NCBI GenBank assembly: GCA_013044385.1
Contig: JABEUN010000073.1
Coordinates: 1-35,079, forward strand
Source of the DNA: Acidimicrobiaceae bacterium
GTDB lineage: Bacteria; Actinomycetota; Acidimicrobiia; Acidimicrobiales; Acidimicrobiaceae
Direction of reading: 5' to 3'
DNA: 35,079 bases
The notes under the pieces are model-generated. The model did not search any database, was not told the origin of the DNA, and saw nothing but the letters and a program-made list of their open reading frames with translations. Within the stretch, counting starts at the first letter, position 1. Each line of letters begins with the position of its first letter. A program made the position numbers and the translations under genes. Below, piece by piece: positions 1,427-9,147 of this stretch.

Positions 1427-2218
1427 TTGTTGCGCGGATTCGCGTCCGGAAAGATCTTTGGTGAATATCGACCAGGCAGAGGTGCGCTGATCGTCTTTCT
1501 GCATGGATGGGCCAGGACTAGTGAGGACTTTATAGCAGTCACAAGCCAACTGGTAGACGGGCTAGAGGGCTCAGATAGGCCCGTTCCTGCGATGCTGAGC
1601 CTCGATCTACCGGGATTCGGAGCCTCGCCTCCGCCTACACAAGCTATTGGATCAGATTGGTATGCGGAGATGACTGCGGAATCCGTTGAGTCGGTATGTC
1701 GGGAAATCGGTACTTCAGAGGTTCATCTTGTGGGTCATTCTCTTGGCGGACGGGTGATAGCGCACTACGCAGCTGCCGGCCGGTGGCCGATGAGCTCGGT
1801 TATTTTCGCAGGTGCTCCGCTGCTCCGCCTCAGTGCGCAATCTCCAGTATCTGCCAAACTCCGCTTTGCAAAGGCTTTGGCAAAGTATGGCTTGGTCTCA
1901 GAGTCAAGACTCGACGGGCTAAGGGATAAGTCCGGCTCTCCGGATTACCGGGCTACATCGGGGGTAATGAGATCTGTCTTTGTCACGCTGGTGAATGAGG
2001 ACTATAGGTCGTACCTAGCCAAGATCGAAGTTCCCACACTCTTTGTCTCCGGTAGCAACGACACAGCCGTCCCACCCAAGGTGGCTGAGCTGGCTTCCGA
2101 ATTAGTTTCGAACTCCCGAACCGTGGTCCTTGATGGAGTGGACCACTTCATTCCGACGCACGCGCCCGACCGTTTGGCACGACTCGTTGCAAACCACATC
2201 CTTGGAGCCGAACTATGA
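1427..2218 (+). CDS. Alpha/beta-fold hydrolase
   Basis: A 263-residue alpha/beta hydrolase, probably a serine esterase or amidase; the substrate cannot be told from sequence. The oxyanion-hole HGW is at residues 26-28. The nucleophile elbow GHSLGG is at 103-108 with Ser105. The likely acid is Asp212 in SGSNDTAVPP and the base is His240 in VDHFIPTH, so the triad is complete and in the right order. The TTG start at 1427 follows AGGGGA at good spacing. There is no signal peptide. Its stop overlaps the start of the Mur ligase gene (ATGA, 2215-2218), so the two are almost surely translated together. A role linked to peptide or cell-wall metabolism is inferred from this coupling only. Confidence 0.85.
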   Translation: MLRGFASGKIFGEYRPGRGALIVFLHGWARTSEDFIAVTSQLVDGLEGSDRPVPAMLSLDLPGFGASPPPTQAIGSDWYAEMTAESVESVCREIGTSEVHLVGHSLGGRVIAHYAAAGRWPMSSVIFAGAPLLRLSAQSPVSAKLRFAKALAKYGLVSESRLDGLRDKSGSPDYRATSGVMRSVFVTLVNEDYRSYLAKIEVPTLFVSGSNDTAVPPKVAELASELVSNSRTVVLDGVDHFIPTHAPDRLARLVANHILGAEL

Positions 2219-3798
2219 GTGTTCTGGATCAGTCACTGGTAAGTGTTATATCCATCGTTGGCCTTCTCCTTGGGAGTCCGCGCTGGTTACGTGTTGCTCA
2301 ACGTGAACACTACGTGGCAGGCATGACCACAAAGTTTGCGCTGAGATGGTGGACCCTGATCGATAAGCCGGCTAACCCAGTTAGCTTCGTCCTTGCCGTA
2401 GTCGCCTCCGAGCTGACCATCAGACACGAGCTAAATCTGTATGACCTCCTAGGTCTGGCAGCCTTAACTGCACTCGTGGCCGTTTACTTTCCACTTGGCC
2501 TGAGCCTCAAAGGCAGAACCTCGAAGCTCGAATGGACTAAACGCCTCAAGCGGATAGCGGTTCTCTCCTATTTGCTGGTACTGGCTCTGACCACCATTGG
2601 GCTGACTTTACACATCGGACCCCTCTTCGCTGGACTTCTTGCGATGGGGTATCCCATGATCATCGATCTCGCGGTAGCGATACTGAAGCCATATGAGGAG
2701 GTGGCCGCCAGGAGGTTCGTCGAAACGGCAGCCAAGAAGCTCGCAAGCCTTGCCCCGAGGGTTGTCGCTGTGACGGGATCTTTCGGCAAGACGACCACAA
2801 AAGGCTATATAGCTTCTCTCTGCTCATCGACAATGGTAACGGTCGCCTCCCCAGCATCATTCAACAACCGTGCTGGTTTGTCGCGAGCGATAAACGAGAA
2901 TTTGACCACTGGAACAGAGCTCTTTGTGGCGGAGATGGGGGCATACAGGGTAGGTGAGATCGAATCTTTGGTCGGTTGGATCAGGCCCGAGATCTCCGTG
3001 ATCACTGCTCTCGGTCCTGTCCATCTGGAGAGATTTGGGTCTGAAGACCAGATTCTCAAGGCTAAAAGCGAGATCGTAAAGGGTGCAAAAGTAGTTGTTC
3101 TCTGTGTGGACTACCCCAAACTGGAGTTGCTTGCCAACGAGTTGGAGGCCGCTGGAGTCCGAGTCTGGCGCTGTTCTGCCGGAGACTTTAGAGCGGAAGT
3201 ATGCGTGAAATCCGACGAGGAAGGGGGTCTGGTGGTCTACTACTCGCAACGTCGTATTGGATACTTGCCCCGTCAGGAGCTGTCTTCGGGGAATATAGCT
3301 TGCGCAACAGCCGTCGCGCTCGAACTGGGCATTTCGGAAGAGACCATAGCGCGACAGCTATTTGAGCTGAAGCCTCCGCCACACCGGCTCACCACAACAG
3401 TCGTCGAAAACTCTGGCATTTTCGTTCTGGACGACACCTATAACTCGAATCCGACTGGAGCTAAGCACGCCCTATCCGTTCTGGCTGAAAAGGAGGGTGC
3501 GATCAATAGGGTGGTGGTGACTCCGGGAATGGTTGAACTTGGCTACAAGCAGTACAGCGAGAACTACAAGCTGGGCCAGAATATCGCTGAGGTGGCCACC
3601 CACCTAGTCATCGTTGGAAAGACCAATAAGCGGGCTCTCCAGTCCGGAGCGTTCGACAGATCCAAGACAGAAGGCGCGAAGCTCAAAAAAGTGATTGATG
3701 TCTCGACGCGCGAGGATGCGGTGCGATGGGTGCGTGAGAATCTGCACAGTGGGGATGTCGTCCTATATGAAAATGACCTCCCCGACCACTTCGCCTGA
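2215..3798 (+). CDS. Mur ligase family protein (MurF-like) with N-terminal membrane domain
   Basis: A 527-residue protein. Residues 1-160 hold about five hydrophobic segments (near 7-22, 56-68, 78-97, 113-131 and 135-158), so it should sit in the membrane. A Mur ligase core follows: ATP-binding TGSFGKTTTK at 187-196, SFNNRAGLS at 215-223, the acidic AEMGA at 239-243, His270, a KAKSEI segment at 282-287 matching the usual carbamylated-lysine site, and the MurF-type DDTYNSNP at 406-413. Mur ligases join an amino acid or dipeptide to a UDP-sugar peptide using ATP. MurF adds D-Ala-D-Ala. Here the soluble UDP-substrate domain is absent and the membrane domain takes its place, so a lipid-linked acceptor or another peptide substrate is possible. 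The gene overlaps the hydrolase upstream, and a D-Ala-D-Ala-type ligase lies downstream. It could be the housekeeping MurF or a specialised paralogue. Confidence 0.85.
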   Translation: MSVLDQSLVSVISIVGLLLGSPRWLRVAQREHYVAGMTTKFALRWWTLIDKPANPVSFVLAVVASELTIRHELNLYDLLGLAALTALVAVYFPLGLSLKGRTSKLEWTKRLKRIAVLSYLLVLALTTIGLTLHIGPLFAGLLAMGYPMIIDLAVAILKPYEEVAARRFVETAAKKLASLAPRVVAVTGSFGKTTTKGYIASLCSSTMVTVASPASFNNRAGLSRAINENLTTGTELFVAEMGAYRVGEIESLVGWIRPEISVITALGPVHLERFGSEDQILKAKSEIVKGAKVVVLCVDYPKLELLANELEAAGVRVWRCSAGDFRAEVCVKSDEEGGLVVYYSQRRIGYLPRQELSSGNIACATAVALELGISEETIARQLFELKPPPHRLTTTVVENSGIFVLDDTYNSNPTGAKHALSVLAEKEGAINRVVVTPGMVELGYKQYSENYKLGQNIAEVATHLVIVGKTNKRALQSGAFDRSKTEGAKLKKVIDVSTREDAVRWVRENLHSGDVVLYENDLPDHFA

Positions 3799-3894: not shown

Positions 3895-3931
3895 GATCCA
3901 TTGTCGATAGAAGTTTGGTAGGTGTTTGCGA

Positions 3932-5044
3932 ATGAGACAGGTGGGCATTGTCTTCGGCGGACCGTCTCCGGAGCATGATATTAGCATTCTCACCGGGTTG
4001 CAGGCCGCAAGAGCACTCCGCAGTACTGGGGTTCAGGTTCACGGGCTGTTCTGGAACAAGTCGGGTGAGTGGTTTTTGGTGGATCCCCTTAAGGAGGCAC
4101 AGGCATTTGCTAACGAGAGACCCGATGGCGGCCAAAGCCTGTATCTCAGGCTCGGCTCCGAGCCCGGATTTTATCCACCGGCGGGGCGTCTCGGAAGGGC
4201 CAAGCCGATCGAACTGGAGGCAGTGGTAAACGCTTGTCACGGCGGTCCTGGTGAGGATGGTTCACTCCAGGCGGTCCTTGACCAGGCTGGAATCGCTTAC
4301 ACCGGTCCGAGTGCACGGACCGCAAGTCTGGGAATGGATAAGCTCGCATTTTACGGTGTGGTCGCCCAGGCAGGGCTTCCAGCACTTCAACGTGTTCTCC
4401 TCGACCGGTCCACTTCAGAGGTACCATTTGATCCGCCTTTCATTGTCAAGCCGCGTTTCGGTGGCTCCTCGATAGGTATTGAAGTGGTCAGCGATCTGCC
4501 GACTGCGCAGATGCGTTTGGGGGCCAATGTGCACTTAAGGGCTGGGGCGGTGCTCGAGCCCTACAGGCCTGACCTGTTCGACATCCAGATTGCTGCACGC
4601 AACTATCCTGGGTTCGAACTCTCAGCAATCGAACGCCCGCTTCGAAAAGGTGTTTCGAAGGAGATACTCAGTTATTCGGACAAGTACATAGCCGGTGAAG
4701 GTATGTCCACTGCCCCACGTGAGCTCCCTGCGGCGGTGTCCAATGAGTTTGCCGAGCGCTTGAGGTCCTATGCGAAGACAGTTGCAGGTTTGGTTGGCAT
4801 TAGGGGCATTATGCGTTTTGACTTCATGGCCGGGGCTGATGAGCAGCTCTACGTCAATGAGGTCAACACCATTCCAGGCTCGCTAAGTCACTACCTCTGG
4901 ATAGATCCTAAAGTGGCGTTTGAAAAGCTGTTGTCACAGATGATCGAGGAGGCCCTAGAGGTTCCGAGCTTCAGTCCGGTCGTGGCAGGGGCTGACGGAT
5001 CGGTGCTGCGATCAGCATCATCAATTGCAGCGAAGCTCGCTTAA
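3932..5044 (+). CDS. D-alanine--D-alanine ligase family ATP-grasp enzyme
   Basis: A 370-residue ATP-grasp ligase of the D-Ala-D-Ala ligase type, which joins two amino acids through an acyl-phosphate. It shows the N-terminal GGPSPEHDIS (residues 9-18), ACHGGPGEDG (101-110), IVKPRFGGSSIG (171-182), and the metal-binding end RFDF (295-298) plus VNEVNTIPGS (308-317). Asp297, Glu310 and Asn312 keep the spacing of the E. coli DdlB magnesium ligands. The last block reads IPGSLSHYLW where many Ddl enzymes have LPGFT, so the second-substrate pocket may differ. ATG 3932 is chosen over TTG 3926 because AGGTG lies seven bases before it. It follows the Mur ligase after 133 bases and probably supplies the dipeptide that enzyme uses. 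Confidence 0.85.
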   Translation: MRQVGIVFGGPSPEHDISILTGLQAARALRSTGVQVHGLFWNKSGEWFLVDPLKEAQAFANERPDGGQSLYLRLGSEPGFYPPAGRLGRAKPIELEAVVNACHGGPGEDGSLQAVLDQAGIAYTGPSARTASLGMDKLAFYGVVAQAGLPALQRVLLDRSTSEVPFDPPFIVKPRFGGSSIGIEVVSDLPTAQMRLGANVHLRAGAVLEPYRPDLFDIQIAARNYPGFELSAIERPLRKGVSKEILSYSDKYIAGEGMSTAPRELPAAVSNEFAERLRSYAKTVAGLVGIRGIMRFDFMAGADEQLYVNEVNTIPGSLSHYLWIDPKVAFEKLLSQMIEEALEVPSFSPVVAGADGSVLRSASSIAAKLA

Positions 5045-7893: not shown

Positions 7894-9147
7894 TTGATCT
7901 TTCTTGGCGAGGCCAATTCGGGGCCGGTATTCGCGCAGCCGGAGTCCAACCTCCTTGTCCTTGGCCCGCCAAGGTCTGGTAAGACTACGTCCGTCATAAT
8001 CCCGAATCTTCTTCTGCACCAAGGGCCGGCTGTAGTCACGTCGACCAAGTCTGACGTGCTCAAGGCGACTCTTTCCAGACGGACTCAGGTGGGACCCGTC
8101 TATCTATTCGACCCGACGGGCAGCGTTGTGGCCCCAGTGGGTGTGATCCCGGTTCGATGGTCACCGGTGGTTGCAGCACCCACCCTCGAAAGTGCCATCG
8201 CTGTAGCAGACAACATTGTGGATGTAGCACTCGGACGAGGCTACGGAGAAGGTTCACATTGGGCAGAGCGCGCAAAAGCCATGCTGGCCCCCGTACTGCT
8301 AGCAGTCAATCTTTCTGGCGGAGATATGCGCGATGTTGTTGGCGGCATCGACGAGAGGGACCTTCTTCGCTTCGGTGATTCGTTGGAACGAAACAGTGAA
8401 CTGAGAGCGCTGCAGATTCTGTCGGGTCTTCACCAGACGGAAACCAGAGAACTTTCCGGGATCTTCTCGACTTGTTCAGGAGCGCTGGCCGCCTATCGGT
8501 CGAGGGTTGCGGTCGAGAGTTCAGTGAAGCCGAACTTCTCGGCGAAAGAGTTCCTCGATGCAAAGGGGACCCTGTTCATTATCTCCTCGTCGTCGGCCCA
8601 AAGGACAGTTGCACCAGTAATTGTCAGTATTCTCGATCAGATTAGAATTGAGCGGTATAGAAGGAGTCAAGAAACAACCGATTCTGGCGACGGACCACTA
8701 CTGCTGGCGCTGGATGAATTGACGAATATAGCTCCAATTCCCGACCTTGCGTCGATACTGTCCGAGGGGGTTAGCCAAGGAGTAACCACGATCGGATGCC
8801 TGCAGGACCTATCTCAGGCGAGATCTCGTTGGGGAAGCGCATCGTCTGGATTTCTCACCCTCTTTGGCACCACACTGCTACTTCCTGGAGTGGCAGACTC
8901 TATGACCCTTGGTGCCATATCTGAAGTATCGGGGACACGTATGGTGCGTGAGTCGCAGCATAGCTATGACACATCGATCTCTTTACGGCGTCGGTCAACC
9001 ATCTCGGTTCGATTGGTGGAGAGGAAGGTGCTAACCCAAGGCGAATTGTCCCAGATTCCGATGGGAAGCGCTCTGGTATTTGATTGGCGATCGCCGCCAG
9101 GTTCGGTGAGTCTTAAGCCGTTCCGGGCTCGTGAAGCCGGAGAATAG
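7894..9147 (+). CDS. VirD4/TraG-like P-loop ATPase, soluble and orphan
   Basis: A 417-residue ATPase of the VirD4/TraG coupling-protein family, which in conjugation and type IV secretion feeds DNA or protein to a membrane channel. Walker A is GPPRSGKT at residues 24-31. TSTKSDVL follows at about 49-56. Walker B is LLLALDEL near 268-275, followed by TNIAPIPDL. GCLQDLSQ near 300-307 fits the conserved Gln-containing motif of this fold. VirD4 proteins normally have two N-terminal membrane helices, but here Walker A starts 24 residues in and no such helices exist. No relaxase, VirB or other transfer gene is near. TTG 7894 has GAGG upstream. It may be a housekeeping or export ATPase that lost its conjugative context; its partner is unknown. 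Confidence 0.8.
   Translation: MIFLGEANSGPVFAQPESNLLVLGPPRSGKTTSVIIPNLLLHQGPAVVTSTKSDVLKATLSRRTQVGPVYLFDPTGSVVAPVGVIPVRWSPVVAAPTLESAIAVADNIVDVALGRGYGEGSHWAERAKAMLAPVLLAVNLSGGDMRDVVGGIDERDLLRFGDSLERNSELRALQILSGLHQTETRELSGIFSTCSGALAAYRSRVAVESSVKPNFSAKEFLDAKGTLFIISSSSAQRTVAPVIVSILDQIRIERYRRSQETTDSGDGPLLLALDELTNIAPIPDLASILSEGVSQGVTTIGCLQDLSQARSRWGSASSGFLTLFGTTLLLPGVADSMTLGAISEVSGTRMVRESQHSYDTSISLRRRSTISVRLVERKVLTQGELSQIPMGSALVFDWRSPPGSVSLKPFRAREAGE

Follow-up and report, generated by a model that had tools for sequence, protein, structure and literature searches.

As taught, the D-Ala-D-Ala-adding step of cell-wall synthesis does not vary: it is a soluble reaction with UDP-MurNAc-tripeptide as the acceptor. 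MurT, which together with GatD forms the lipid II amidating complex, is a Mur ligase that lacks the N-terminal domain and acts on lipid II at the membrane. In D-Ala-D-Ala ligases (Ddl) of known structure, a motif Ser (Ser281 in E. coli DdlB) contributes to binding the carboxylate of the second D-Ala. Campylobacter jejuni has a gene cluster for MurF (Cj0795c), for the alpha/beta hydrolase Cj0796c and for Ddl (Cj0798c); Cj0796c, of unknown function, could not be deleted and is probably essential, and when it was expressed from a second site, about 1/10 of the transformants formed filaments (PMC5530802). The Km of the Helicobacter pylori Ddl for the second D-Ala was 627 mM, the highest concentration tested, and those of four other Ddls were 0.07-5 mM (PMC6899670, Table 3).

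The window analyzed here, a whole stretch of 35,079 nucleotides from an Acidimicrobiaceae bacterium, carries a three-gene module consisting of a hydrolase (ABH), a MurF-type ligase (TM-MurF) and a variant Ddl (Ddl').

1427..2218, forward strand: alpha/beta hydrolase ABH, triad Ser105-Asp212-His240; its stop overlaps the TM-MurF start by 4 bases
2215..3798, forward strand: TM-MurF, a predicted membrane-embedded MurF-type ligase of 527 aa with an ATG start, the reading frame being as the initial annotation described it
3926..5044, forward strand: Ddl', a variant D-Ala-D-Ala ligase and the only Ddl of the genome

TM-MurF resembles MurT in having no UDP-binding N-domain and in being encoded next to a partner enzyme, but MurT has no membrane domain and its partner is a glutaminase instead of an alpha/beta hydrolase. 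The MurT_C domain (PF08353) was not found in TM-MurF by Pfam; it is present in the MurT of the same genome, which also lacks the N-domain and lies beside GatD on another contig (C52). No PgsB/CapB model was among the NCBIfam matches of TM-MurF, the neighbors of which are ABH and Ddl. The same three gene types are grouped in C. jejuni, and the H. pylori Ddl (PDB 2pvp) carries the PGSLxxYL signature of Ddl'. However, the module in Campylobacterota is annotated as an ordinary MurF and Ddl, and the likeness seen here is one of gene types and Ddl signature. In the open-access literature searched, we found neither a membrane MurF nor a joint MurF/Ddl switch described. The module suggests that an essential cell-wall step exists in a variant that has not been described.

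Domain architecture of the ligase

The following features were assigned within TM-MurF.

2215..2751, forward strand: predicted membrane domain, residues 1-179, replacing the UDP-MurNAc-binding N-domain (AF2 helices, hydropathy, positive-inside count)
2299..2313, forward strand: QxxxY signature of the membrane domain (Q29, Y33), invariant in 70 sequences; predicted cytosolic face
2488..2553, forward strand: cationic loop KxLxxTxRxxR, with T108 and R110 conserved in ~90% of the homologues; predicted cytosolic face
2773..2802, forward strand: P-loop TGSFGKTTTK (homologue alignment)
3058..3075, forward strand: KAKSEI, with Lys as K284 (85/88)
3430..3453, forward strand: DDTYNSNP, C-terminal domain motif (homologue alignment)
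3763..3786, forward strand: C-terminal signature LYENDLPD, where classic MurF has VKGSR (homologue alignment)

The initial annotation had proposed that a MurF-type core is joined to a hydrophobic domain standing in place of the UDP-substrate domain, and both parts of this description hold. Pfam detected Mur_ligase_M at residues 186-327 and Mur_ligase_C at residues 396-517, with no match for the N-terminal Mur domain. The best NCBIfam model was murF (TIGR01143), the match to which begins only at model position 63 and reaches 199 bits, under the curated cut-off of 288.6. The central and C-terminal domains were present in 70/70 aligned homologues and the N-terminal domain (PF01225) in 0/70, although the absence of PF01225 alone is weak evidence, since this model gives just 20-23 bits or no match at all with classic MurFs from the same order. 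The AF2 model, a prediction from the alignment of 70 homologues with a pLDDT of 93.1 and a pTM of 0.88, is stronger evidence for the loss of the N-domain: residues 1-179 are modeled as helices only (3-30, 37-46, 53-67, 75-91, 109-131, 135-144 and 146-179), and residues 180-527 as a Mur ligase fold.

According to hydropathy analysis, most of the 80-odd homologues have three to five hydrophobic segments. With the ligase placed in the cytosol, the loops on the predicted cytosolic side hold about 5 Lys and Arg residues each, and those outside fewer than 0.4. This family-wide pattern in the membrane domain is well beyond chance. Three patescibacterial homologues (L095, L099 and L104) have a shorter membrane domain of ~140 residues with two or three segments; in L095 and L099 the upstream gene is still ABH.

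The motifs TGSFGKTTTK, KAKSEI and DDTYNSNP are all kept in TM-MurF and its homologues, in which the catalytic residues E240 and H270 are invariant (88/88) and the GK of the P-loop is nearly so (87/88); the Lys of KAKSEI is the one carbamylated in classic Mur ligases. The closest PDB relatives are MurF enzymes, with structural matches of Z 29-39. The Foldseek and VIA matches of the whole model come mostly from the ligase core and are thus silent on the novelty of the membrane fold. TM-MurF thus shares with the classic enzyme (TIGR01143) its central and C-terminal domains, the P-loop, the carbamylated-Lys motif and DDTYNSNP, and is likewise the sole MurF of its genome, but differs from it in the membrane domain and in having a constant hydrolase partner. 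Two further motifs differ as well, VKGSR being replaced by ENDLPD and GDMLELG by TPGMVELG. With a membrane domain apparently standing where the UDP-substrate domain would be, the acceptor could plausibly be membrane-bound.

Replacement of the classic MurF within the order

The genome of the window is 95% complete and encodes seven proteins with Mur_ligase_M: MurC, MurD and MurE of the dcw cluster, a second MurE, MurT, FolC and TM-MurF. The dcw cluster is ordered rsmH-ftsL-PBP-murE-mraY-murD-ftsW-murG-murC-murB-ftsZ, with no murF between murE and mraY, and no second MurF was detected among all frames of the genome scored. The initial annotation had reasoned that the lack of an ordinary murF, together with a normal substrate pocket, would make TM-MurF the housekeeping enzyme on a membrane tether. 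The former was found, yet the predicted protein has no normal UDP pocket either. TM-MurF is very probably the housekeeping MurF, taking the place of the classic one. The second MurE, full-length and encoded outside the dcw cluster (G000:C10; L010:4569-6065, reverse strand), has DNPG where the dcw MurE has DNPR, and may therefore add a different amino acid.

We classified the MurFs of 118 genomes of the order by their model matches, not by reading each N-terminus: as classic if the match covered the whole of TIGR01143 or was a fragment beginning at position 1, and as TM type if it started at model position ~58-65, as in most, or was a contig-edge fragment. By this assignment, 61 genomes have a classic MurF, 41 have the TM type only and none has both (Fisher p ~1e-29 to 2e-29, uncorrected for kinship; the p-values of the 118-genome comparison include ~1e-26, likewise uncorrected). 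The remaining 16 had no MurF match at the strict threshold, and 12 of these encode ABH. A relative assembled as a single contig (G010, 99% complete) has the TM type only. Because at least five families (f14, f16, f34, f44 and f47) contain both kinds, the exchange happened repeatedly. In three relatives with a classic MurF (L108, L109 and L110), murF is likewise separate from the dcw cluster and has a canonical Ddl gene facing it or at its side, so the exchange of the MurF/Ddl pair took place at a comparable position.

Partner enzymes and the proposed reaction

ABH lies directly upstream of TM-MurF, usually with a 4-base overlap (ATGA), in Acidimicrobiia, Chloroflexi, Rhodobacteraceae, Gammaproteobacteria, Bacilli and Patescibacteria. 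A serine-hydrolase fold is supported by AF2 and Foldseek; the nucleophile elbow is GHSLGG, the triad residues S105, D212 and H240 are invariant in 77/77 sequences, and Y79, D173, Y174 and E191 are >90% conserved. Judged by sequence, the ABHs of the module are one orthologous family. Fold and sequence searches did not single out a function for ABH; they matched generic esterases, haloperoxidases and C-C hydrolases only, with proline iminopeptidase lower. Among the 118 genomes, an ABH profile scored at least 160 bits in 40/41 genomes with TM-MurF versus 1/61 with a classic MurF, the single exception (G079) being 6% contaminated; the next-best scores were ~127 bits. In two genomes (G093 and G139), ABH and TM-MurF are on separate contigs, so their association is more than linkage. 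Co-occurrence on other contigs and the single family with its invariant triad rule out ABH as a random operon neighbor.

Ddl' matches PF01820 and PF07478 (ATP-grasp) and scores 178 bits against TIGR01205, below the cut-off of 246. Residues E16, H17, K175, S181, S182, K253 and Y254 are invariant in its family. Compared with canonical Ddls, the ATP-grasp and the residues of the first D-Ala site (E16, the KY of the omega loop and GSS) are kept, but the second-substrate motif is changed.

4859..4900, forward strand: Ddl' signature ENxIPGSLxxYLW; the canonical PGFTPxSMYP with its D-Ala2-binding Ser is missing

The Ddl motif follows the MurF type: in 40 genomes, PGFTPxSMYP was found in 20/20 with a classic MurF and PGS/A...LW in 20/20 with TM-MurF. 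Ddls encoded near a classic MurF in the same order have NTIPGFTPxSMYP, and ENxxPGSLxxYLW or a similar sequence is present in the linked Ddl of every phylum having one. The best PDB match of Ddl' is the H. pylori Ddl 2pvp, with the same variant motif NPIPGSLANYLF. Pairwise distances of the ligase core correlate with those of Ddl (0.97) and of ABH (0.89).

At the level of sequence, the domain swap, the sole copy, the exclusion within the order, the co-occurrence with ABH and the matching Ddl switch are established; the lipid-linked acceptor and a non-standard dipeptide are what we infer. With modest confidence, we favor a reading in which a membrane-embedded TM-MurF, with ABH and Ddl', carries out the D-Ala-D-Ala-adding step on a lipid-linked acceptor. 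MurE would make UDP-MurNAc-tripeptide as usual, and MraY, perhaps also MurG, would load the tripeptide on the lipid carrier. The conserved cytosolic loops of the membrane domain would bind the lipid-linked head group, and TM-MurF would add the dipeptide to the lipid-linked tripeptide at the cytosolic face of the membrane, much as MurT acts on lipid II. ABH may process an intermediate formed during this step, trimming, unmasking or proofreading it, and Ddl' would probably be poor with free D-Ala as its second substrate, or would need partners to use it. Since both the second-substrate motif of the Ddl and the C-terminal motif of the ligase are changed, the incoming dipeptide, or its handling, may differ.

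Throughout the clade, the UDP-binding domain is gone and a conserved membrane domain has been acquired, and TM-MurF has repeatedly been swapped in as a unit with a hydrolase and a Ddl whose substrate site is altered. If this reading is true, a membrane-stage variant of peptidoglycan precursor assembly exists, Cj0796c and the kinetic anomaly of the H. pylori Ddl acquire testable roles, and TM-MurF is an enzyme target unlike the MurF of inhibitor screens.

A tethered but ordinary MurF is possible but rather unlikely: the enzyme would still join UDP-MurNAc-tripeptide and D-Ala-D-Ala, the membrane domain would place it by MraY for channeling, and ABH would be a loosely related accessory. The intact ligase core and catalytic residues, the presence of MraY and MurG in the genome, and the annotation of the H. 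pylori Ddl as making D-Ala-D-Ala are in line with this. However, the UDP-binding domain appears to be gone in every member instead of merely being extended by an anchor, an ABH with an invariant triad accompanies TM-MurF even when the genes are not adjacent, and the second-substrate site of the Ddl changes in parallel.

Another reading, which we regard as doubtful, places the novelty in the dipeptide: Ddl' would join D-Ala to another amine, such as a D-Ala ester, TM-MurF would ligate the product, and ABH would hydrolyze the mask to leave a normal pentapeptide end. The loss of the canonical motif in all linked Ddls, the Km of 627 mM in H. pylori (PMC6899670), the ENDLPD signature of the ligase and the esterase-like character of ABH with its invariant triad would all fit such a masked product. 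Yet ABH also accompanies TM-MurF in Patescibacteria without Ddl and is thus not tied to Ddl', and the poor kinetics of the H. pylori enzyme could be an in vitro artifact or reflect the need for a partner protein.

A ligase for a non-peptidoglycan polymer, such as a capsule-like amide polymer, or for a wall modification has precedents in Mur-type ligases with other substrates (CapB/PgsB, CphA and MurT), but we reject this reading as highly improbable because TM-MurF is the one MurF of genomes that encode PBPs and a full dcw cluster, excludes the classic MurF, is linked to Ddl, and lies within dcw-type clusters in a Chloroflexi-labeled MAG (L062) and in Patescibacteria.

The lipid-linked reading can be widened, tentatively and at a level we consider unlikely, to a second stem route spanning phyla, in which the tripeptide would be loaded on the lipid first, TM-MurF would add a dipeptide made by a Ddl for which free D-Ala is not a substrate, and ABH would finish or unmask the product, with the same module operating in Campylobacter and Helicobacter. 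If true, such a route would explain why the H. pylori Ddl has such poor kinetics and why Cj0796c is probably essential.

Phylogeny and distribution of the module

In a ligase-core tree, from which the membrane domain was left out, 42 TM-MurFs fall into a single clade (SH-aLRT 98) next to the classic MurFs, and the two group together against MurC/D/E with a support of 98. The clade splits into a patescibacterial branch and the rest. Beyond the order, TM-MurF occurs in Rhodobacteraceae, Gammaproteobacteria, Chloroflexi, Bacilli, Calditrichota and Patescibacteria; the gammaproteobacterial sequences fall among those of Rhodobacteraceae, which suggests transfer. The cultured Pelagimonas phthalicica (DSM 26923) has murE and mraY 218 bp apart with no murF between them, and the module elsewhere in its genome; as far as the analysis went, it and Pacificibacter marinus have TM-MurF alone. 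Beyond the order the two kinds of MurF can coexist: both were found in a Chloroflexi MAG (G043) and in three Patescibacteria (G198, G207 and G216).

Some Patescibacteria have the gene order ABH, TM-MurF, DegT-type aminotransferase, FemAB, MraY, FtsW, MurG; the aminotransferase and FemAB lie between TM-MurF and mraY in L078, L081 and L097. No recognizable Ddl was found in 15 patescibacterial genomes of this ABH/TM-MurF/DegT/FemAB/MraY type, which makes ABH a more constant partner of TM-MurF than Ddl. We dropped the generalization that all Patescibacteria with TM-MurF are without Ddl, since several in the phylum have one, some of them adjacent. The TM-MurF of L062 nests within Acidimicrobiia, so that its bin label may be wrong; its module lies inside a dcw-type cluster of FtsW, MurG, MurB, ABH, TM-MurF, Ddl, FtsQ and FtsA.

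A plasmid search gave no full-length match to TM-MurF, and an IMG/VR scan gave one partial ligase match. Three fecal records labeled 'Bacteriophage sp.' were also matched, two from human feces with ABH/TM-MurF/Ddl' (L167, MT835658.1; L168, MT835503.1) and one with a classic murF in a dcw cluster. Given these genes, the records look like bacterial contigs, and a phage-borne TM-MurF was rejected; human gut bacteria therefore also appear to have the module.

Elsewhere in the window, a TraG/TraD-type conjugative coupling protein (7894-9147) is encoded amid ordinary metabolic genes and is conserved beside CaiB in two relatives of the same genus (L043 and L045).
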